Shown: one piece after another, positions 9,236 through 41,920 of the stretch
Numbering within the stretch: the stretch's first letter is position 1
Layout of the letters: every line of letters begins with the position of its first letter
Origin: a virus
Length of the DNA: 41,920 bases
Virus record (IMG/VR): IMGVR_UViG_3300028595_000024
Location: 1 to 41,920 of that record
Direction: 5' to 3' (one strand)
The notes under the pieces: model-generated
Seen by the model: the letters and a program-made list of their open reading frames with translations, nothing else
Databases searched by the model: none
What the model was told of the DNA's origin: nothing
Translations under genes and position numbers: made by a program

Positions 9236-9762
9236 CACTCGAAGTTACCCCCCATGTTACAAGTAGCCCAGTACACCTTATCAGCGTCCCTCTTAAACCC
9301 TATACCGAAGGTAAACATCTTGGTAATACCAAAGGATGATTTATACCTTGGAGGGGATACGACATCCCGTTTACGGTAAATAAACCAACAATTGAAGAAC
9401 AGCGGCCATTGTAAAACTATACCCCATCTGCACCACGGCTGTATACGAGATAAATACACCGGTTGACCCAAAGGCCCGATCATTTCTATAAACCACTGAG
9501 AGTTAAAAATAGTTTTTCGCTTTGACCCTCCGACAGCTCTGCCGTCAGTGTTTTCTATTCTCCATTCCCCATGGCCACGAAGTGCTATTAGAGCCTTGGG
9601 CATTTCTCTCCATTTCCAGAAGCCTTTAGCTCTAGGGCCCGCCGCTAGTAGATATTGCAGTTTCTTCTTTTGCCTCATGAGCCAACCTCTGTTATCTGTG
9701 CCAGCCCACACCCTGTCTACGTCTCCCTTTAAATGTTCCGGCAGAGCGTCAATTGGACTCAC
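9235..9762 (-). CDS. Conserved-looking Trp-rich hypothetical protein
   Basis: I place the start at GTG 9762, which overlaps the TGA of the upstream gene (GTGA) and follows GGAGG; a GTG 7 codons earlier is also open. The 175-aa product begins MSPIDALPEHLKGDVDRVW. It is rich in Trp and basic residues: GFWKWREMPKALIALRGHGEW, then QPVYLSRIQPWCRWGIVLQW and PLFFNCWFIYRKRD, the last a short hydrophobic patch. I think similar proteins occur in other phages but I cannot name the family. It sits between the DUF6745-like gene and the lysis genes. Confidence 0.62.
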   Translation of the reverse strand: MSPIDALPEHLKGDVDRVWAGTDNRGWLMRQKKKLQYLLAAGPRAKGFWKWREMPKALIALRGHGEWRIENTDGRAVGGSKRKTIFNSQWFIEMIGPLGQPVYLSRIQPWCRWGIVLQWPLFFNCWFIYRKRDVVSPPRYKSSFGITKMFTFGIGFKRDADKVYWATCNMGGNFE

Positions 9763-12014
9763 GACACCTCCATCGGCAGACACTTTTTAATTTTATTGTC
9801 CGGCGTTTTTTCTAATTCCTTCAACTCGGCTATTCTCAACATCCAAGCTCTAGCGTGTAAGGCCTTCTTTGTTTCAGGTGGGACGGGTTGAGCGTACCAA
9901 ACACCGGGGAGACTGGCGTGTTCATAATAGAGATACTTCCTATTTATGCTGTTCCCTAATTTCATCTTCATGAGCTTATAGACGTTACCACCATTTTTGT
10001 GCCTATCAACGAAGATATTCAGGCATTTAGCGTTGGTGGCTTTGAGTATTCTTTCGGCGCCAACCTTCCTGATTATCTCTCTTTGAACATCCACGTTCTT
10101 CTCTGTTAATGCGAGCTTGGGATCTATTTTACCGGCGTCTGTCATAACTAACCATTTAGGAACCCGTATCCCATTTAGGTGGTATATTTCAAATCCGTCT
10201 TTCCATCTGTGGGAAGGCCCCGTTTCGCAATGAGGTCTGTTGTTGGCATTAACTTTTAATATTTCAGGAAATTCGGAAACTATGCAAAACTTCTCGTGCA
10301 TTACCCGAAATCCTCCATATATGGAGGCTTGTCTATAAGGCTCAAAGTTTTCCCAACATTTCAAGCCTGTTAATTTAATTACATTTTGCATGGCATCGGC
10401 ATACGCCTGATATGCGCTCCACATATTCCCACCTTGATATACTTGTGTCCATTTCTTACATAAGTCAAGCATTCTTATCGCGGTGTTTTTATCTCCGTCA
10501 GAGAACACCAACGCCAAATTATACAGCCATTTTTTGTTTATTTTGGCTCTATCGGTGGCTGCTCTTGTGGCGTATTTGGTGGCTATGGTGGCGTCTCTGG
10601 TGGCTTCATCGGTGGCTTCTTTGGTGGCTCTATCGGTGGCTTCCATGGTGACTTCCATGGTGGCTTCTCTGGCGGCTTCTATGGTGGCGTCTCTGGTGGC
10701 TTCATCGGTGGCTTCATAGGCGGCTTCTCTGGCGGCTTCTATGGTGGCTTCCATGGTGGCTTCATCGGTGGCTTCTTTGGTGGCTCTATCGGCGGCTTCA
10801 TCGGTGGCTTCATAGGCGGCTTCATCGGTGGCTTCCATGGTGGCTTCCATGGTGGCTTCATCGGTGGCTTCCATGGTGGCTTCATCGGTGGCTTCCATGG
10901 AGGCTTCCATGGTGGCTTCTCTGGCGGCTACATCGGTAGCGTCTCTGGTGGCTTCATAGGCGGCTTCATCGGTGGCTTCATAGGTGGCTTCTATGGTGGC
11001 TTCTTTGGTGGCTCTATCGGTGGCTTCCATGATGGCTTTATAGGCGGCTACTATGGTGGCGTCTCCGGTGGCTTCATAGGCGGCTTCCATGGTGACTTCA
11101 TAGGCGGCTTCTCTGGTGGCTTTATCGGTGGCTTCTCTGGCGGCGTCTCTGGTGGCTTCATCGGCGGCTTCATAGGTAGCGTCTCTGGTGGCTTCTACAG
11201 CGGCTTGTAGGGTGGCTCTGTCGGTAGCATCTATGGTAGCTTCTATGGAGACTCTGTTGGTGGCTTCATAGGTGGCTCTGTCGGTGGCTGTATCGGTGGC
11301 GTCTCTGGTGGCTTCTATTGCGGCTACATCGGTAGCGTCTCTGGTGGCTTCATAGGCGGCTACATCGGTAGCGTCTCTGGCAGCGTCATCGGTAGCGTCT
11401 CTGGTGGCTTCTACGGCGGCTTGTAGGGTGGCTCTGTCGGTAGCATCTATGGTAGCTTCTATGGAGACTCTGTTGGTGGCTTCATAGGTGGCTCTGTCGG
11501 TGGCTGTATCGGTGGCGTCTACAGCGGCTTCTATTGCGGTATTGACGGCGCTTTTAGTGGCTTCATCGGTGGCTTCTGTGGCGGCGTCTATGGTGGCGTC
11601 TCTGGTGGCTTCATCGGTGACTTCCATGGAGGCTTCATAGGCGGCTTCTCTGGTGGCTTCATCGGTGGCTTCATAGGTAGCTCTATCGGTGGCTTCTGCG
11701 ATGGCTTTTCTGGTAGCGATATCGACATCTTTTTTTGATGACTTATTATTGTTAGCTTCCCACCAACCCGCCGACAGTCCATAAGACAGCGCCATAATTA
11801 AAGGAGAAGGAACAATAACAACTCTTGGTTCCTTCAATTTAGCGACTCGATATAAACCTTTAATAGCGTCCTTTAACTTTTCTTTGTCTATCTCACCTGT
11901 TTGAAATGCGTTCTTTATCCATTTGTCTGTAATAATACGCATCTGCTCTTTTTCTTCGTCGGTTATTCCGCCCTTTGCCCTTGTCGGGGTTCTTACTATT
12001 TTAGTCGATAACAT
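9759..12014 (-). CDS. DUF6745-like protein with a long (A-T-x-E/D)n tetrapeptide repeat
   Basis: ATG 12014 is preferred: TGGAGG lies 7 bases before it, while GTG 12047 has none. The 751-aa protein has three parts. Residues 1-97 are a charged alpha-helical head. Residues about 98-489 are tetrapeptides such as ATDE, ATRE, AAYE, ATME, coded by 12-nt DNA repeats. Residues about 490-751 hold the domain: RPHCETGPSHRWKDG, EIYHLNGIRVPKWLVM, then a segment ending KNVDVQREIIRKVGAERIL, which match my memory of DUF6745 (wDG-hG-vPxxv, Nx-EvRRxxxExxG). The function of that family is unknown. The downstream neighbour overlaps by 4 bp and the upstream one by 14 bp. Confidence 0.72.
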   Translation of the reverse strand: MLSTKIVRTPTRAKGGITDEEKEQMRIITDKWIKNAFQTGEIDKEKLKDAIKGLYRVAKLKEPRVVIVPSPLIMALSYGLSAGWWEANNNKSSKKDVDIATRKAIAEATDRATYEATDEATREAAYEASMEVTDEATRDATIDAATEATDEATKSAVNTAIEAAVDATDTATDRATYEATNRVSIEATIDATDRATLQAAVEATRDATDDAARDATDVAAYEATRDATDVAAIEATRDATDTATDRATYEATNRVSIEATIDATDRATLQAAVEATRDATYEAADEATRDAAREATDKATREAAYEVTMEAAYEATGDATIVAAYKAIMEATDRATKEATIEATYEATDEAAYEATRDATDVAAREATMEASMEATDEATMEATDEATMEATMEATDEAAYEATDEAADRATKEATDEATMEATIEAAREAAYEATDEATRDATIEAAREATMEVTMEATDRATKEATDEATRDATIATKYATRAATDRAKINKKWLYNLALVFSDGDKNTAIRMLDLCKKWTQVYQGGNMWSAYQAYADAMQNVIKLTGLKCWENFEPYRQASIYGGFRVMHEKFCIVSEFPEILKVNANNRPHCETGPSHRWKDGFEIYHLNGIRVPKWLVMTDAGKIDPKLALTEKNVDVQREIIRKVGAERILKATNAKCLNIFVDRHKNGGNVYKLMKMKLGNSINRKYLYYEHASLPGVWYAQPVPPETKKALHARAWMLRIAELKELEKTPDNKIKKCLPMEVS
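10549..11722. repeat. 12-nt tandem repeat array coding (A-T-x-E/D)n
   Basis: About 1.17 kb of near-perfect 12-nt units, on the plus strand ggtggcttc followed by a variable triplet (atc, cat, tct, ata, tat or ttt). Read on the minus strand the variable codon gives Asp, Met, Arg, Tyr, Ile or Lys while Ala, Thr and Glu/Asp stay constant. Over this is a longer duplication: 11175-11304 and 11391-11520 match over 130 bases with one mismatch I can see, offset by 216 bp (18 units). Every unit keeps the reading frame. Confidence 0.92.
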
Positions 12015-12318
12015 TTCTGGCCTCCATACTTTCATAATCAAATACACGCTCTATCCCTTTCTCTTTTATTCCAGGGGTGATTGTCTGATTGCCGTGTTCT
12101 TCATGATCTATGTAGGTAATGTCTCCCACTTTCACATACGTCTTCCCGTCTTTCTCGTACACCTCTATTCCCTTAACATCAGGAAATATATGAGTATGTA
12201 CCCCTTCGCCTCGTTCAATAATGAACCCGTTTTTAACTTCTATCTTTTTTGCTCCTGCCGGTATTTTTTCTACCGCGTACAAGATTAAGTCTCCGTGCTG
12301 ATTTATTACTTTTTTCAT
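12001..12318 (-). CDS. Small conserved phage protein paired with the DUF6745-like gene
   Basis: A 105-aa protein starting after AGGAGAAAACAAA. The sequence has the pattern NQHGDLILYAVEKIPAGAKK, then IIERGEGVHTHIF and KVGDITYIDHEEHGNQTITPG, ending with FDYESMEARNVID. I recall this pattern (HGDL-IP-GHxH-YxKDG-HEEH-PGxY-xREYD) from phage and prophage proteins, often next to DUF6745 members. Several paired His and acidic residues suggest metal or ligand binding in a beta-rich fold. Its last 14 bases overlap the start of the DUF6745-like gene, so the two are coupled. Function unknown. Confidence 0.75.
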   Translation of the reverse strand: MKKVINQHGDLILYAVEKIPAGAKKIEVKNGFIIERGEGVHTHIFPDVKGIEVYEKDGKTYVKVGDITYIDHEEHGNQTITPGIKEKGIERVFDYESMEARNVID

Positions 12319-24349: not shown

Positions 24350-24748
24350 TCAGCCCTCCTTAATTAATTCCCGAATATCTACCCCCTTCTCCCTTTCCTC
24401 TTCCGTTATTTCGCATTCATCAATGTCCCCGGTAAGCCCATCGACATTCCCGGTGATCCCATCGACATTCCCGGAAATCCCATCGACATTCCCATAAATC
24501 CTACTGACGCACCCGGAAAGCCCATCGATGTCCCCGGAAATACCGCTGACGTTCCCGGAAATACTACTGACGTTACCGAAAATATCACTGACGTCCCCGG
24601 TGATCTTATCAACATTCCCGAAAATACCGCTGGCGTTCCCGAAAATACCGGAGATATCACCGAAAACCCTATCATGAACCCCTGCTGTCATCTTCCCGTC
24701 TTTATAATAATAGACTTTAACTTCCTTTTTCTCTAAACACTTTCGCAT
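24350..24748 (-). CDS. Heptapeptide (G-N-V-D-G-I-S) repeat protein
   Basis: The 132-aa protein has an N-terminal 25-residue head (MRKCLEKKEVKVYYYKDGKM), about 12 heptapeptides of the form G-[ND]-[VI]-[SD]-x-[IL]-[STFY] (residues about 29-110), for example GNVDGISGNVDGITGNVDG, and a C-terminal DECEITEEEREKGVDIREL. I recall the ending DDCEITDEERxxGVDIxxL from other phage and plasmid proteins with the same repeats. A 7-residue period with Gly, Asn and regular Val/Ile favours a beta-solenoid. Function unknown. Confidence 0.75.
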   Translation of the reverse strand: MRKCLEKKEVKVYYYKDGKMTAGVHDRVFGDISGIFGNASGIFGNVDKITGDVSDIFGNVSSISGNVSGISGDIDGLSGCVSRIYGNVDGISGNVDGITGNVDGLTGDIDECEITEEEREKGVDIRELIKEG

Positions 24749-26270: not shown

Positions 26271-26582
26271 TCAATGTACGTTTAACTCCGGAACCTGATA
26301 TTGAATAGCCTCAACAATATAAAACAATTCGACTTTATCATTATTTTCAAAATACATTATTGCTTTTACTATCCTTTCAATATTTCCAAGTTCCCTTTCG
26401 GTAAGTTTCAATCTCTCTTTTGCTTGTTTTAATAGATTGTAACCTTCCCTATTCAACGGAATAGAAAACTGATAATTGCATATATATTTTGGTTCTTCTG
26501 GTAAATAAAAATCTCCAATATCGCATTTACCAGTCCCTATCAATATATTTATTCTATCTCTTAGTGGATTGTTAGTTTTCAT
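26271..26582 (-). CDS. Mg-chelatase-C / ComM C-terminal-like domain protein
   Basis: First gene of the minus arm. The 103-aa product ends with a helical segment LNREGYNLLKQAKERLKLTE, RELGNIERIVKAIMYFENND and ELFYIVEAIQYQV, which looks like the C-terminal lid domain of ComM/Mg chelatase (LSARAYxRxLRVARTIADLxGSExIxxxHIAEALQYR). The ATPase part is absent, so it may act as a decoy or partner of a host AAA protein, or simply share the fold. It is AT-rich, unlike the next genes. Start follows TGGAGGAATAAGATT. Confidence 0.6.
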   Translation of the reverse strand: MKTNNPLRDRINILIGTGKCDIGDFYLPEEPKYICNYQFSIPLNREGYNLLKQAKERLKLTERELGNIERIVKAIMYFENNDKVELFYIVEAIQYQVPELNVH

Positions 26583-26617
26583 AATCTTATTCCTCCATTT
26601 ATTTTAAATCTGATCTT

Positions 26618-26646
26618 AGTCTAGTCCTATGATTGACAAGTGTCAA
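26618..26646 (-). promoter_or_regulatory. Early promoter TTGACA-17-TAGACT in a palindrome
   Basis: TTGACA (26641-26646) and TAGACT (26618-26623) have 17-bp spacing, about 40 bases before the first minus-arm gene. The -35 box is half of the inverted repeat TTGACA-AG-TGTCAA (26633-26646), so an outward plus-strand -35 also exists. Confidence 0.65.
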
Positions 26647-26886
26647 CAGCTATTTTGAAATAATTTATAAATAGCACAATATCAATCATTTTATACATTA
26701 TAATAATTAGGTATAAATCAAATGCAATAATAATGCAATATACTAGCTTAATAACTGCTCTATATCCTATTTATATAGGTGCTATATTATGAGGTCTGAT
26801 ATATTATTTTATCACCTCCTAAATAAAAAAATATATCTTAGAGCATCAACTGTTTTTAAAATTATTTTCTTTATTTTAGGCTAATT
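26647..26886. other. AT-rich intergenic region, possible origin or control region
   Basis: About 240 bp without a gene and strongly AT-rich. It holds a repeated GCAATA (in AATGCAATAATAATGCAATA), an inverted repeat CCTATTTATATAGG and several TATA-like stretches. Origin or operator functions are possible; nothing definite is seen. Confidence 0.4.
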
Positions 26887-27287
26887 TGCCCTAAAACAGG
26901 GGCATATAGTAGAGGGGCACTGTGCGAGCAGAGCTTTTCTCACATTTCTTGGATCTTGATCGGGTGATACCGGGACATACGGCTGAATGAAGCTGTATGT
27001 GGCATAGGAGCATCATCTCTTATGACACGAAGGAAAGGACACTTTCCAGACTTTCTGTGACGGAAGCAAATGAAAGGATCAATCGCTACCGCGAGCGATA
27101 AAGCGGTTGTTCTCGCTTTGAACTGAAACGAGCATAAACCGGGGTCAACGGAGTGGTTTTGACAGCTTAGGATTCTCCGCCCGTACTAGGGATATAAACC
27201 ATCTGAAGGGTCACTGCACAAATTGGCTGTGCAGGTAACACAAACTTTTTACTAGAGCTATCCCTAGTAAAAAGAAAAGCTGTGTTA
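26887..27287 (+). ncRNA. Candidate large structured RNA upstream of terS
   Basis: About 400 nt with no gene and at least nine strong hairpins on the plus strand: TGCCCT/AGGGGCA (26887-26904); a 10-bp stem ACATACGGCT/AGCTGTATGT (26975-27000); GGAAAG-GACA-CTTTCC (27032-27047); ATCGCT/AGCGAT (27082-27099); CGGTT/AACCG enclosing CTCG/CGAG (27103-27141); GTCAA/TTGAC (27144-27163); CTGCACA/TGTGCAG (27214-27234); and a final stem TAACACA/TGTGTTA enclosing CTTTTTACTAG/CTAGTAAAAAG (27236-27287). TACTAGGGAT (27184-27193) also pairs perfectly with ATCCCTAGTA (27260-27269), which would break the last stem. I cannot place it in a known RNA class. Strand is inferred from terS. Confidence 0.68.
27245..27274 (+). 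promoter_or_regulatory. Switch-like hairpin before terS
   Basis: An 11-bp perfect stem with an 8-base loop, extended by a 7-bp outer stem (27236-27242 with 27281-27287). Ten bases of its 3' side can pair instead with 27184-27193. It lacks a U-tract, so it is better described as an attenuator or switch than an intrinsic terminator. Confidence 0.5.
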
Positions 27288-27305
27288 TGTTTAAATTTAA
27301 ATTTT

Positions 27306-27779
27306 ATGAACGAAGATAAAAGAAAAGAACTAGAAGAAATGCTATCCCCTGCACTAGGCCGTAAGCCTTGTGCAAGAGCGCATTTATTCGATAGAACAGC
27401 TCAGGAGTTATTCTTAAAGCACTATTTTAAAACAGGGAATATGTCTAAAGCTGCCGATGTTACTGGTTTTGATAGGCGTACAGTCTTTTTACAGCTTCAG
27501 AAGAACCCTCAATTCAAACATGATTTCGAGATGGTGAAGAAAGCCATTAAGCACGATTTAGAAGAAGTGATGATGGAGAATGCTAAAACGCCTAGAGGCT
27601 ATTTAGACCGTATAACTTTTTTACGTCGTCATTTCCCAGAAGAGTATAACCCTAAGATTCAGGAAGCTAAGTATCTCAAGCAGGATGATTCAAGGCTCAA
27701 TAAATTGTTGGATATTTTGGATGCTAAGGTCATAGATGTGAATGAGGAAAAGACTAAGGAAAATGACGAAAATGCTTAA
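27306..27779 (+). CDS. terS: Terminase small subunit-like protein
   Basis: I take ATG 27306 (MNEDKRKELEEMLSPALG); a GTG at 27282 lies inside the preceding hairpin. No good ribosome site is seen for either. The 157-aa product has an HTH: FLKHYFKTGNMSKAADVTGF, DRRTVFLQLQKNPQFKHDF, followed by helices and ITFLRRHFPEEYNPK, an arrangement and ending typical of small terminases (helix-turn-helix, then LKARxPExYx). It should recognise the packaging site and load the large subunit. Its distance from terL (1.4 kb) is unusual but the intervening genes are tiny. Confidence 0.72.
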   Translation: MNEDKRKELEEMLSPALGRKPCARAHLFDRTAQELFLKHYFKTGNMSKAADVTGFDRRTVFLQLQKNPQFKHDFEMVKKAIKHDLEEVMMENAKTPRGYLDRITFLRRHFPEEYNPKIQEAKYLKQDDSRLNKLLDILDAKVIDVNEEKTKENDENA

Positions 27780-28345: not shown

Positions 28346-28524
28346 TGATCCCGAACGGCACGTATCTTTCTGTTCGAGTGGAGAATTTGCTGAAGGAGTT
28401 CGCGGAGACGGCGAATCCTGAGAATTTTGAAGTAGAGCTGCCCAAGATGACGATGAGGATGTGCGAGTTGTTTTATGACGAATTGGAATACAAGTACCGG
28501 CTCAGGGTGCCGAAGGGAAAGTAG
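28345..28524 (+). CDS. Small hypothetical protein, 59 aa
   Basis: Coupled to the previous gene by TAATG. Reads MIPNGTYLSVRVENLLKEFA, then ELPKMTMRMCELFYDELEYK and a basic tail YRLRVPKGK. Family unknown. Position in the packaging module suggests late expression. Confidence 0.6.
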   Translation: MIPNGTYLSVRVENLLKEFAETANPENFEVELPKMTMRMCELFYDELEYKYRLRVPKGK

Positions 28525-28526
28525 CT

Positions 28527-28637
28527 ATGTGGCCTTTTTCGAGTAAGAAAACGTGGAAAGGGTGGGTGATGGGTGTTTTGGAGAAAATGCTCATTATGTT
28601 GGCGGGAGCCGCCGTCAGAAAAAATTTTAAAAAATAA
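28527..28637 (+). CDS. Small membrane-active protein, 36 aa
   Basis: Starts 2 bases after the previous stop. Reads MWPFSSKKTWKGWVMGVLEK, MLIMLAGAAVRKNFKK: basic ends around a hydrophobic helix (about residues 13-30). Such cationic one-helix products in phages are often membrane proteins. Ribosome site is weak. Confidence 0.45.
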   Translation: MWPFSSKKTWKGWVMGVLEKMLIMLAGAAVRKNFKK

Positions 28638-28649
28638 GTAAAAGAAGGA

Positions 28650-28706
28650 GTGGCGGATCTAGCCGAGGAATACGAGGCGGAACGAAGAGCTCCGAAGGAG
28701 CGATGA
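28650..28706 (+). CDS. Possible 18-aa peptide
   Basis: A GTG frame (MADLAEEYEAERRAPKER) ending inside the following small gene. The ribosome site is too close to the start, so support is weak; it fills the gap between two genes. Confidence 0.22.
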   Translation: MADLAEEYEAERRAPKER

Positions 28707-28708
28707 GT

Positions 28709-28756
28709 ATGCCTTGCGGTAAAAGAAAGAAGGGAAGAAAAGGAGGACGTAAGTGA
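28709..28756 (+). CDS. Tiny very basic Cys-containing protein, 15 aa
   Basis: Reads MPCGKRKKGRKGGRK, with AAGGAG 8 bases before the ATG; an ATG two codons earlier is possible. I recall small phage products with the same MPCGKK opening. Ten of fifteen residues are Lys, Arg or Gly. Its TGA overlaps the GTG of the next gene. Confidence 0.5.
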   Translation: MPCGKRKKGRKGGRK

Positions 28757-29142
28757 AGAAGATTTTAGGATGTTTGTGTGGACTTTTATTTTTTGTGGGA
28801 ACGGCCCAGGCGGGCGGCCAATATATCGAATCGTTGGCGACGACGATTTATATTAATCAGGTGGAGGTGTCGTCTGTTACGGCGACGGCGCTATACACGG
28901 GGTCGGCGGATCTGGCGGGGAGAACGAAAACATGTTTTCAATCCGTGGATGGGACGTATGGAGTTTGGTTGGGAACATCCAGCTCTGTTACGGCGACAAA
29001 CGGTTGGTATATTGGGGATAAAGACAATCCCAACAATTCCGTGTGTTTTCCTTTTGGGAATAATTACACGTTTTATGGTCTAGGAGAGACAGGACAGCTT
29101 ACAACCAATTTGGCTGTCATTGAGATACGTCAGAAGAATTGA
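28753..29142 (+). CDS. Exported beta-rich protein with Sec signal peptide
   Basis: GTG start after AGGAGGACGTAA, overlapping the previous stop (GTGA). The 129-aa protein opens with a classic signal peptide, MKKILGCLCGLLFFVGTAQA, with cleavage expected after AQA (residue 20). The mature 109 residues are strands: TTIYINQVEVSSVTATALYT, FQSVDGTYGVWLGTSSSV, NNSVCFPFGNNYTFYGLGE. The strand pattern resembles the small head protein at 33383. A periplasmic or surface protein is expected; an exported product between terS and terL is unusual. Two Cys (C62, C97) could bond. Confidence 0.68.
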   Translation: MKKILGCLCGLLFFVGTAQAGGQYIESLATTIYINQVEVSSVTATALYTGSADLAGRTKTCFQSVDGTYGVWLGTSSSVTATNGWYIGDKDNPNNSVCFPFGNNYTFYGLGETGQLTTNLAVIEIRQKN

Positions 29143-31109
29143 TTTTAGATAAAGAGAAGCAAGATAGATTAAATAAGCTGAAGTCGTTGTGCCAAAACGA
29201 CTTGAAGTTTTTGTGTAAAAACATACTGGATATGAAGGATTGGCAAGACGGGCTACACGACGAGTTAGCCGAGTTCTTGATGAGGGAGCACTCAAGAAAA
29301 TTAATATTAATACCGAGGAACCATCTCAAAACAAGCATTTGCACCGTCGGTTTTGCAATCCTTAGCATTTTAAAGAATCCCGACATACGGATTCTCATCA
29401 CCAACGCCACACTGAGAAGAACGGAAGAAATCATGTCCCAAATACAGGGATATCTGAAGGATTCCGTTCTTCCCGGCATCTTCGGGGAATTTGAAAACAA
29501 AAGCACCCGTTGGACGATTGATCAAATCACCATAGCGCAGAGAAAGTCTAAAGCCATAAAAGAGCCCACCATTTCTATTGCCTCTATTACCACAAACGTA
29601 ACTGGGGGTCACTACGACCTCATCATCCATGACGACCTAGTGGAAAGAGGCAATATTGGAACAGCCGAGCAAATGCAGAAGGTGAAGGACTTTTTCACGG
29701 ATTCCCTCAACCTGGCCCCGAATTCCCCCATTGTGACGATAGGGACTCGTTGGGCCATGGATGATCTCTACGGGGATCTTCTAGGAATGAAAGACTTCGC
29801 CAATTTTGTGCGAGCTGCTGTGGACGACGGGGGAAATGTCATATTTCCCAATATGGTGTGCAAAGACAGGTCTGATAAAGACTGGCAGAAGAAAATATGT
29901 TTGGAAGCTCAGCTGGAATTGCAAGGAACCTACTCTTTTCACTGCACACCAAAAGAGTCTCCCGTTTTAATGGGGGATTTTACTTACAAGCCCATATCGG
30001 AAGTTAAAGTTGGGGACGAGGTTATTGGGTGGAAGGTAAGTAAGACGGGAAGAAGGCAGGTTGTTAAATCCCTTGTTTTAGCCAACGGCAAAAGAAAGTC
30101 CGTTGTTCAGACGATGGAAATGGAATCAGGAAGAAAAGTGAGATGTACGCCGGATCACAGATGGTATACGGGAAGACTGGACAAAACACATAAAGAATAC
30201 AGCCCCGCAAAAATAGGCTCGAAGCTCATGTTTGTGGCAGATCCCAAAGACGCTGTGTGTCCGAGCGAAATGTTGTGGGGCGCTTCGTGGCTAGGAGGCA
30301 TGTTTGACGGAGTCGTAGGAATAAAAGAAGACGGAATAGAAGACGTTTATTCCATGCAAACAGAGACAGGCAATTACGTCGTGTGGGGATACGCTTCCAA
30401 AAATTGCCAATACATGAATAATCCCACCTCGGAAGACACCATTGAATTCAAGAGGCCGTGGATTACGACATTCGACATGAACAGCGACCTGTTCAACGAG
30501 TTGAAGGGAATTGAAGGGCTCCTCAGCGTTGATCCAGCGTTCCGGCTAAAACAGACGAGTGATTATTCGGGTCTTGTCGTCACCAAGACGACGGAAGATA
30601 ATATGACGTACGTGTTGGAAGCCGAACAGAAGAAAATGAACGCTAAGGAACTGATTCATCGGATATTTCAGCATGTGGAGACGTACAACGTGAAAAAGGC
30701 CGTTATAGAATCCCAGGCCGCCCAAATTGTCCTCATTCAACTGCTGAAAGAGGAAATGAGGAAACGGGGAAAGTTTTTTGTTGTGGAAGAGGTGACGCAG
30801 GACACGAAGGAAACAAAGGCCATGCGTATTAGGGCCTTGATTCCTCATTACGCCAACGGACGAATACTTCACAGGCGGGGGTTGGCGATATTGGAAGATC
30901 AGCTCGTGCAGTTTCCAAGATCCATGCACGACGATGTGTTGGACGCGTTATCCATGCAGTCAAAATATTGGAGAACACCAAGAGGACGACTGGTGAACAA
31001 ATCACATGTTCAACACTGGTCTTGGGATTGGTGGAAGAAGCAAGTGCCTGACCCACGAACATCGGCAGAGAAAAAATTTAGCGCTGTGACGCGAAGGAAT
31101 TGGATTTAA
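29139..31109 (+). CDS. terL: Terminase large subunit interrupted by a mini-intein
   Basis: TTG start overlapping the previous stop (TTGA). The 656-aa precursor contains a 154-aa intein at 269-422; the spliced enzyme is 502 aa, a normal size. ATPase half: adenine and Walker A region LILIPRNHLKTS (59-66 the P-loop), Walker B DLIIHDD (160-166), coupling motif GTRW (202-205). Nuclease half after the intein: SVDPAFRLKQTSDYSG, VIESQAAQIVLI and MHDDVLDAL supply the acidic metal ligands. The junction reads YSFH-CQYMNNP after splicing, matching the conserved F-x-[CSA]-QY-x-NNP motif of terminases. It packages DNA with terS and the portal. Confidence 0.95.
   Translation: MILDKEKQDRLNKLKSLCQNDLKFLCKNILDMKDWQDGLHDELAEFLMREHSRKLILIPRNHLKTSICTVGFAILSILKNPDIRILITNATLRRTEEIMSQIQGYLKDSVLPGIFGEFENKSTRWTIDQITIAQRKSKAIKEPTISIASITTNVTGGHYDLIIHDDLVERGNIGTAEQMQKVKDFFTDSLNLAPNSPIVTIGTRWAMDDLYGDLLGMKDFANFVRAAVDDGGNVIFPNMVCKDRSDKDWQKKICLEAQLELQGTYSFHCTPKESPVLMGDFTYKPISEVKVGDEVIGWKVSKTGRRQVVKSLVLANGKRKSVVQTMEMESGRKVRCTPDHRWYTGRLDKTHKEYSPAKIGSKLMFVADPKDAVCPSEMLWGASWLGGMFDGVVGIKEDGIEDVYSMQTETGNYVVWGYASKNCQYMNNPTSEDTIEFKRPWITTFDMNSDLFNELKGIEGLLSVDPAFRLKQTSDYSGLVVTKTTEDNMTYVLEAEQKKMNAKELIHRIFQHVETYNVKKAVIESQAAQIVLIQLLKEEMRKRGKFFVVEEVTQDTKETKAMRIRALIPHYANGRILHRRGLAILEDQLVQFPRSMHDDVLDALSMQSKYWRTPRGRLVNKSHVQHWSWDWWKKQVPDPRTSAEKKFSAVTRRNWI
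29943..30404 (+). other. Mini-intein (154 aa) inside terL
   Basis: Block A begins at Cys269: CTPKESPVLMGDFTYKPISE, then VGDEVIGW. Block B is VRCTPDHRW with T337 and H340 (intein T69, H72). Block F/G is VYSMQTETGNYVVWGYASKN with C-terminal Asn422, followed by extein Cys423. The penultimate residue is Lys, where His is usual. No homing endonuclease domain remains, but WLGGMFDGVVG (384-394) looks like a decayed LAGLIDADG helix. Confidence 0.92.
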
Positions 31110-41385: not shown

Positions 41386-41920
41386 GCGTAACTATACTGT
41401 GTCCGATATCAGAAACAGTTCATCCCATTGTGTTTCAGTCTGCCATGTCTATGGTCAATTATACGGCCAACAACGGGATAAAAATAGAGTACATGGGAAC
41501 AACGGAAAGAACGCTAGTAGACACGGCCAGAAACACGCTAACGAAAGAGCTGTTAAAGACACCTAGCGAATGGGCTTTTTGGATGGACGCGGACATGGTT
41601 CTTCCTAAAGAAACTATTGTGAGGCTTTTAGAAGTAGCAAAAGAAAAAGAAGCAAAGATGGTGACAGGGGTGTACTACCAACGAGGACGAAAGCATTGGC
41701 CCGTACTGTGGGCTCGTAGTCCAGAGCTAGAGAAGGGCGGCACACCGCAAGTTATAAACAAAGACGAATACGACCAGAACGGATACATAGGCATGTTTAT
41801 GGTTCCAGGGCCAGAAGCAAAGGAGCCTTTTCAGGCTCACTCTGCCGGGTTCGGGTGCTGTTTAATACATAGGTCTGTCTTTGAGTCGTTGGATGATCCG
41901 TGGTTTAAATTCGTGTATGG
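41382..41920 (+). CDS. GT-A type glycosyltransferase, N-terminal part (continues at 3-302)
   Basis: ATG overlaps the previous stop (ATGA) after GGGGGAAAA. The reading runs off the right end and resumes exactly at the left end, giving 237 aa. This part holds the nucleotide-sugar domain: MSVTILCPISETVHPIVFQS, the segment TTERTLVDTARNTLTKELLK and the metal site WAFWMDADMVLP with DAD (a DxD motif). VTGVYYQRGRKHWPV lines the donor pocket. It is related to family 2-like phage glycosyltransferases that also show PGPEAKEPFQAHSAGFGCC further on. Cassette partner of the GT-B and methyltransferase genes. Confidence 0.85.
   Translation, partial: MSVTILCPISETVHPIVFQSAMSMVNYTANNGIKIEYMGTTERTLVDTARNTLTKELLKTPSEWAFWMDADMVLPKETIVRLLEVAKEKEAKMVTGVYYQRGRKHWPVLWARSPELEKGGTPQVINKDEYDQNGYIGMFMVPGPEAKEPFQAHSAGFGCCLIHRSVFESLDDPWFKFVY
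41794..41920. repeat. Terminal direct repeat, right copy (circular overlap)
   Basis: Identical to 1-127 over the full length. Removing one copy leaves a 41,793-bp circle. Confidence 0.95.

Follow-up and report, generated by a model that had tools for sequence, protein, structure and literature searches.

A structured leader RNA candidate before terS in a phage lineage that lacks close described relatives

A heavily folded, gene-free stretch of about 370 nt was found between a promoter-like element and the terminase small subunit gene (terS) of a viral contig of 41,920 bases (IMG/VR record IMGVR_UViG_3300028595_000024, positions 1 to 41,920; this whole stretch of DNA is referred to as the window). 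The candidate is well placed, gene-free and structured, and stands without evolutionary proof as a family. We tentatively read it as the 5′ leader of the late transcript, acting in cis on late transcription or on terS expression; we infer its transcription, its fold in the cell and its role. A late-operon leader describes it better than a GOLLD- or ROOL-like RNA. Should the leader be functional, packaging and the late programme would be under RNA-level control from their very beginning, in a lineage of phages that has no close described relatives. The pre-terS element common to four divergent phages is a concrete place to map a late promoter or packaging site.

Genome setting

The first 127 bases of the contig recur exactly as its last 127 (1–127 = 41794–41920), so that the genome was probably assembled as a circle with the repeat as the assembly overlap. 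Minus-strand genes, including those for DNA polymerase A and an AAA-domain protein, lie left of about 26.6 kb; plus-strand genes run from 27.3 kb, with terS, TerL and portal first. The candidate (26887–27287) sits at the point where early (leftward) and late (rightward) genes diverge, and terS follows at once. This position, and a gap of about 400 nt without a gene, had been noticed in an earlier, sequence-only reading; both observations were confirmed. ORFs of at least 42 aa are absent from both strands of 26887–27281.

Two start codons are candidates for terS, GTG 27282 and ATG 27306, neither with a good Shine–Dalgarno sequence. A terS homologue (35% identity) is encoded at 1577–2098 of the related phage contig L014.

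The early protein at 26271–26582 (minus strand, 103 aa) gave a weak Mg_chelatase_C match, below the Pfam cut-off. Highly repetitive minus-strand proteins are encoded at 9759–12047 and 24350–24748 (EATDRATxEAT-type and GNVSGISGNV-type repeats).

Fold strength

On the plus strand, 26887–27287 (401 nt) gave a folding energy of −135.9 kcal/mol (z −4.63), which none of 100 shuffles equalled; the minus strand gave z −3.33. For calibration, 104 stretches of 380 nt were sampled from the genome, and one, in a repetitive coding region, was more extreme than the candidate. Among 200-nt windows genome-wide, 1.2% had z < −4, and comparable folding was seen at 28446–28752 (z −5.2), which appears to hold small ORFs, for example one of 36 codons from near 28527. 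The fold signal, at about the top 1–2% of the genome, is therefore unusual, yet not unique.

The 5′ excess was located at 26801–27100, with z between −4.7 and −5.8 on the plus strand and weaker values on the minus strand. The middle portion (27001–27250) is of ordinary fold strength, and the 3′ palindrome at 27235–27288 again carries an excess, on both strands and at least as strongly on the minus strand. Folding of 26912–27291 as a whole, with 20 shuffles only, gave z −3.6 on the plus and −4.0 on the minus strand, so that no strand preference is claimed for the stretch as a whole.

Predicted helices and alternative 3′ folds

The features are listed in Table 1. About ten helices have a mean pair probability of at least 0.5, and five or six of these reach about 0.9 or more; at least nine strong stems had been counted from the sequence alone. 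Stable GACA tetraloops had been described in the plural: one is present (27038–27041), and GACA is not a GNRA loop. By mean pair probability the strongest helices are 26975–27000, 27003–27024, 27032–27047, 27149–27179 and 27214–27234.

The 3′ end has two mutually exclusive pairings, a local hairpin or two long-range helices, built from perfect helices of 11, 11 and 9 bp. The possible GTG start of terS lies inside the 3′ arm of the local hairpin. In the other state this arm is taken up by two upstream partners, and the outer helix closes almost the whole structured stretch. When the upstream sequence was shuffled 300 times, one shuffle matched the score of the long-range pair of helices.

L014 carries a hairpin (1238–1299) shaped like that at the 3′ end of the candidate, and its 3′ arm has two nested upstream partners (1084–1092/1291–1299 and 1105–1111/1277–1283); 20 of 300 shuffles were as good, and the gene-free stretch of L014 overall folds no better than shuffles (z 0.03). 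The sequences are unrelated, and the likeness of layout is suggestive only.

Table 1. Features at the early/late divergence point (window coordinates).
Feature	Position	Strand	Basis
AT-rich half of the divergent intergenic region without genes, to the left of the promoter-like element	26583–26880		21–24% GC; sequence and ORF list
Promoter-like element GGGGCATATAGTAGAGGGGCACT	26899–26921	+	best window site of the L092 23-mer
Structured leader RNA candidate, from promoter-like element to terS	26912–27288	+	z −4.6 (26887–27287), helices, no ORF
Long-range closing helix, 5′ arm (26932–26940 × 27273–27281, 9 bp)	26932–26940	+	fold and pair probabilities
Three successive hairpins	26975–27047	+	most robust part of the fold; plus-strand excess stronger here
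Hairpin 1 (10 bp)	26975–26984/26991–27000	+	mean pair probability 0.94
Hairpin 2 (8 bp)	27003–27010/27017–27024	+	mean pair probability 0.99
Hairpin 3 (6 bp), GACA loop	27032–27037/27042–27047	+	mean pair probability 0.99
Alternative partner of the 3′ arm (27184–27194 × 27259–27269, 11 bp)	27184–27194	+	pair probabilities
Hairpin CUGCACA/UGUGCAG (7 bp)	27214–27234	+	mean pair probability 0.98
3′ palindromic hairpin (arms 27235–27242/27281–27288 and 27245–27255/27264–27274)	27235–27288	+	pair probabilities
terS, first gene of the late operon	27282 or 27306 to 27779	+	PHROG terminase small subunit phrog_4044, E 2.6e-5

Promoter-like element and related phages

Relatives were obtained from MCP and TerL searches of viral contigs and comprised L005, L012 and L014 (TerL 66–68%) and L092–L097 (TerL about 38–54%). 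The terS region is covered in four of them, namely L014 (TerL 66%) and L092, L093 and L094 (TerL about 43% identical). Contigs related by MCP alone were set aside, since most have no recognisable TerL of this kind, which makes their terS regions unsuitable for comparison. Single-query searches of viral contigs with TerS or portal gave no relatives, and none was found with TerL and MCP alignments against genome contigs.

The window and the four relatives each have about 650–870 nt of gene-free, or nearly gene-free, DNA at the divergence point, ahead of terS or its operon. In L092 terS is preceded, at a distance of about 19 nt, by the element GGGGTATATAGTGTAGGGGTACT. When this 23-mer was used as a probe against both strands of the entire window, the best site (26899–26921) agreed at 19 of 23 positions and the next best at 15. 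The best sites of the probe in L093 (3717) and L094 (2578) were also found just before terS and on the same strand. There is one clear site per genome. A consensus built from L092 and L094 only had a single match in the window, 26905–26921, against a chance expectation of 0.23. When the intergenic regions of L014, L092 or L094 were compared with that of the window by plain local alignment, no significant match resulted, and the case for the element thus rests on position and best-site rank. A best-site search found no such element in L014, and a search for the exact pattern across IMG/VR returned only the contig of L092 and a single site within an unrelated coding gene.

In the element a G run comes after TATAGT, and a short stretch with a Shine–Dalgarno-like sequence separates it from terS in L092 and L093. 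On these features we read it as the late promoter; it could also be a packaging or replication site. The distance to terS is roughly 20–40 nt in L092–L094, which do without any leader, whereas about 360–385 nt of structured sequence intervene in the window. Since terS starts so soon after the element in the other three phages, the extra sequence of the window falls inside the would-be 5′ UTR, and if the element is a promoter, the 361–385 intervening nt are a 5′ leader. The sequence-only reading had counted a first stem at 26887–26904 within the RNA; its right arm overlaps the conserved element, so the body of the RNA more likely spans 26912–27288.

Upstream of terS in L092 (2063–2151), L093 (3458–3546) and L094 (2319–2342) a conserved block TATAACCCAAACTACCGCCAGC and repeats TATCAACnnTTTTC were observed. 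They are possible activator or terminase sites and are not clearly seen in the window. The TATCAAC repeats of L092–L094 occur in the window at chance level only and are not claimed for it.

Searches for RNA families and homologues

Rfam 15 was searched with cmscan over the whole window at gathering scores, which returned nothing, and over 26600–27500 up to E 5, which returned nothing in the candidate and a lone chance match (Atu_Ti4, 26775–26838) in the AT-rich sequence outside it. The sequence-only reading had likewise been unable to place the RNA in a class and had suggested that it may be a new family. Models for GOLLD, ROOL, OLE, HEARO and raiA were unmatched even at E 5; those for group I and group II introns, tmRNA and RNase P were also unmatched, and ARAGORN found neither tRNA nor tmRNA in the whole window.

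The candidate is present once in the genome, and blastn against phages and plasmids gave no match. Covariance models of each half, which are weak because each was built from a single sequence, recovered only the window itself from about 1.05 Mb of related contigs, and the 3′-half model, equally a weak single-sequence model, gave no match in the complete records of these contigs. The long gene-free stretch of L014 holds no detectable homologue of the RNA. Phage, plasmid, viral-contig and related-phage sequences thus yielded no homologue, and so no compensatory changes by which a family could be supported.

A gene-free stretch of 444 nt in the related phage L010 (4255–4698) folds with z −3.7 and has no match in Rfam at gathering scores.

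Proposed late-operon leader and alternative explanations

The leader reading is favoured by the element, whose position and orientation agree in four phages and which is each time the best match in the sequence searched. The fold excess, stronger on the plus strand in the 5′ half, and the exclusive 3′ folds also favour it, as does, weakly, the layout of L014. Against it stand the lack of a homologue and hence of covariation, the stretch of L014 with neither a fold excess nor the element, and the other relatives, which manage with no leader at all. Transcription would start at or just after 26899–26921 and traverse the folded RNA of about 370 nt before it reaches terS and the long late operon. 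The first hairpins and the two-state 3′ end may then gate read-through of the polymerase into the late operon, by antitermination or attenuation; alternatively, the leader could gate translation of terS.

The put RNA of phage HK022 comprises two adjacent stem-loops in about 70 nt of nascent transcript near a promoter, and the terminators that it affects can be 10 kb or more distant (PMC9378689). The candidate recalls it in its predicted adjacent stem-loops, which would lie in a nascent transcript near a putative promoter and before a long operon; three such hairpins lie 54–126 nt behind the conserved element, and the comparison covers this layout. Unlike put, which stands behind early promoters, the candidate is about 370 nt long and stands before late genes, so that the resemblance is one of layout and not of membership. 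Structured 5′ leaders such as attenuators and riboswitch-like RNAs are similar in that the candidate occupies a presumed 5′ UTR and can fold in two exclusive ways at its 3′ end, with the possible start codon of terS inside one of the folds. Unlike these, it has no plus-strand terminator hairpin with a T run, and no ligand or regulator is known.

One alternative, which we consider unlikely, is a DNA site, either a cos or pac site for the initiation of packaging or a replication origin, at which TerS or another protein would bind the palindromes and the TACTAG repeats. TACTAG occurs three times, once inverted, within 27184–27269; the 3′ palindrome is no weaker on the minus strand, and an AT-rich neighbour and a switch in GC skew coincide with this place. 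A lambda-type cos region upstream of terS likewise has repeats and palindromes beside the gene, and the candidate resembles it in these and in its single conserved element per genome. It differs from such a region in that the fold excess of its 5′ half is mainly on the plus strand and in that the spacing of the element in relatives is promoter-like, with the Shine–Dalgarno-like sequence of L092 and L093 within the roughly 20 nt before terS. The repeats of the L092–L094 type, at chance level in the window, also speak against a DNA site.

Similarly unlikely is a noncoding RNA in its own right, produced abundantly at late times, processed off the terS message and with its own function, as is supposed for GOLLD and ROOL. 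The dense multi-helix fold, the helix that closes almost all of it and the location behind a late-promoter-like element are consistent with this, as GOLLD is made around lysis and rises during it (PMC12286853). In being a long, heavily folded and gene-free phage RNA candidate it is loosely like GOLLD and ROOL (PMC12286853). The closer likeness to these RNAs drawn by the sequence-only reading was not borne out: their models are unmatched at E 5, the candidate has about 370 nt whereas many GOLLD members exceed 800 nt (PMC12286853), their tRNA neighbourhood is lacking in a tRNA-free window, and there is neither a homologue nor covariation support. The 3′ end on the plus strand also has no terminator-like site.

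It is improbable that the stretch is a lineage-specific insertion, such as a MITE-like or other small element, or a spacer that folds by chance, without a function of its own. Its absence from L092–L094, the lack of detected conservation, the similar z values elsewhere in the genome and the imperfect 12-bp terminal inverted repeats (26929–26940/27273–27284) would fit. Against this stand the single genome copy, with none in phages or plasmids, the lack of a clean target-site duplication and a fold strength in the top 1–2%.

More improbable again, in our judgement, is a new class of ornate phage RNA of about 370 nt, made from a late promoter, closed by a long-range helix and serving as a switch or free RNA at the start of packaging. 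A leader-peptide attenuator, in which translation of short ORFs at 27022 (12 codons) or 27070 (18 codons) would alter downstream folds, is very improbable: AGGAG and AUG sit on the two facing arms of a single hairpin (27003–27024), but we estimate that about 0.1 such combinations of short ORF and motif are expected by chance in this length, and no homologue offers codon conservation.

Terminase large subunit

In the TerL gene of the window (29139–31109) two conserved terminase blocks are separated by an in-frame mini-intein of about 150 residues, with weak Pfam matches to Intein_splicing and Hint. TerL of L005, L012, L013 and L014 has no mini-intein at the corresponding site. In L092 (3121–6843), L094 (3199–6930), L096 (263–2710) and L097 (481–4617), TerL is split into N-terminal and C-terminal ORFs with 1–3 kb of other genes between them, and in L095 each half is encoded on a different strand.
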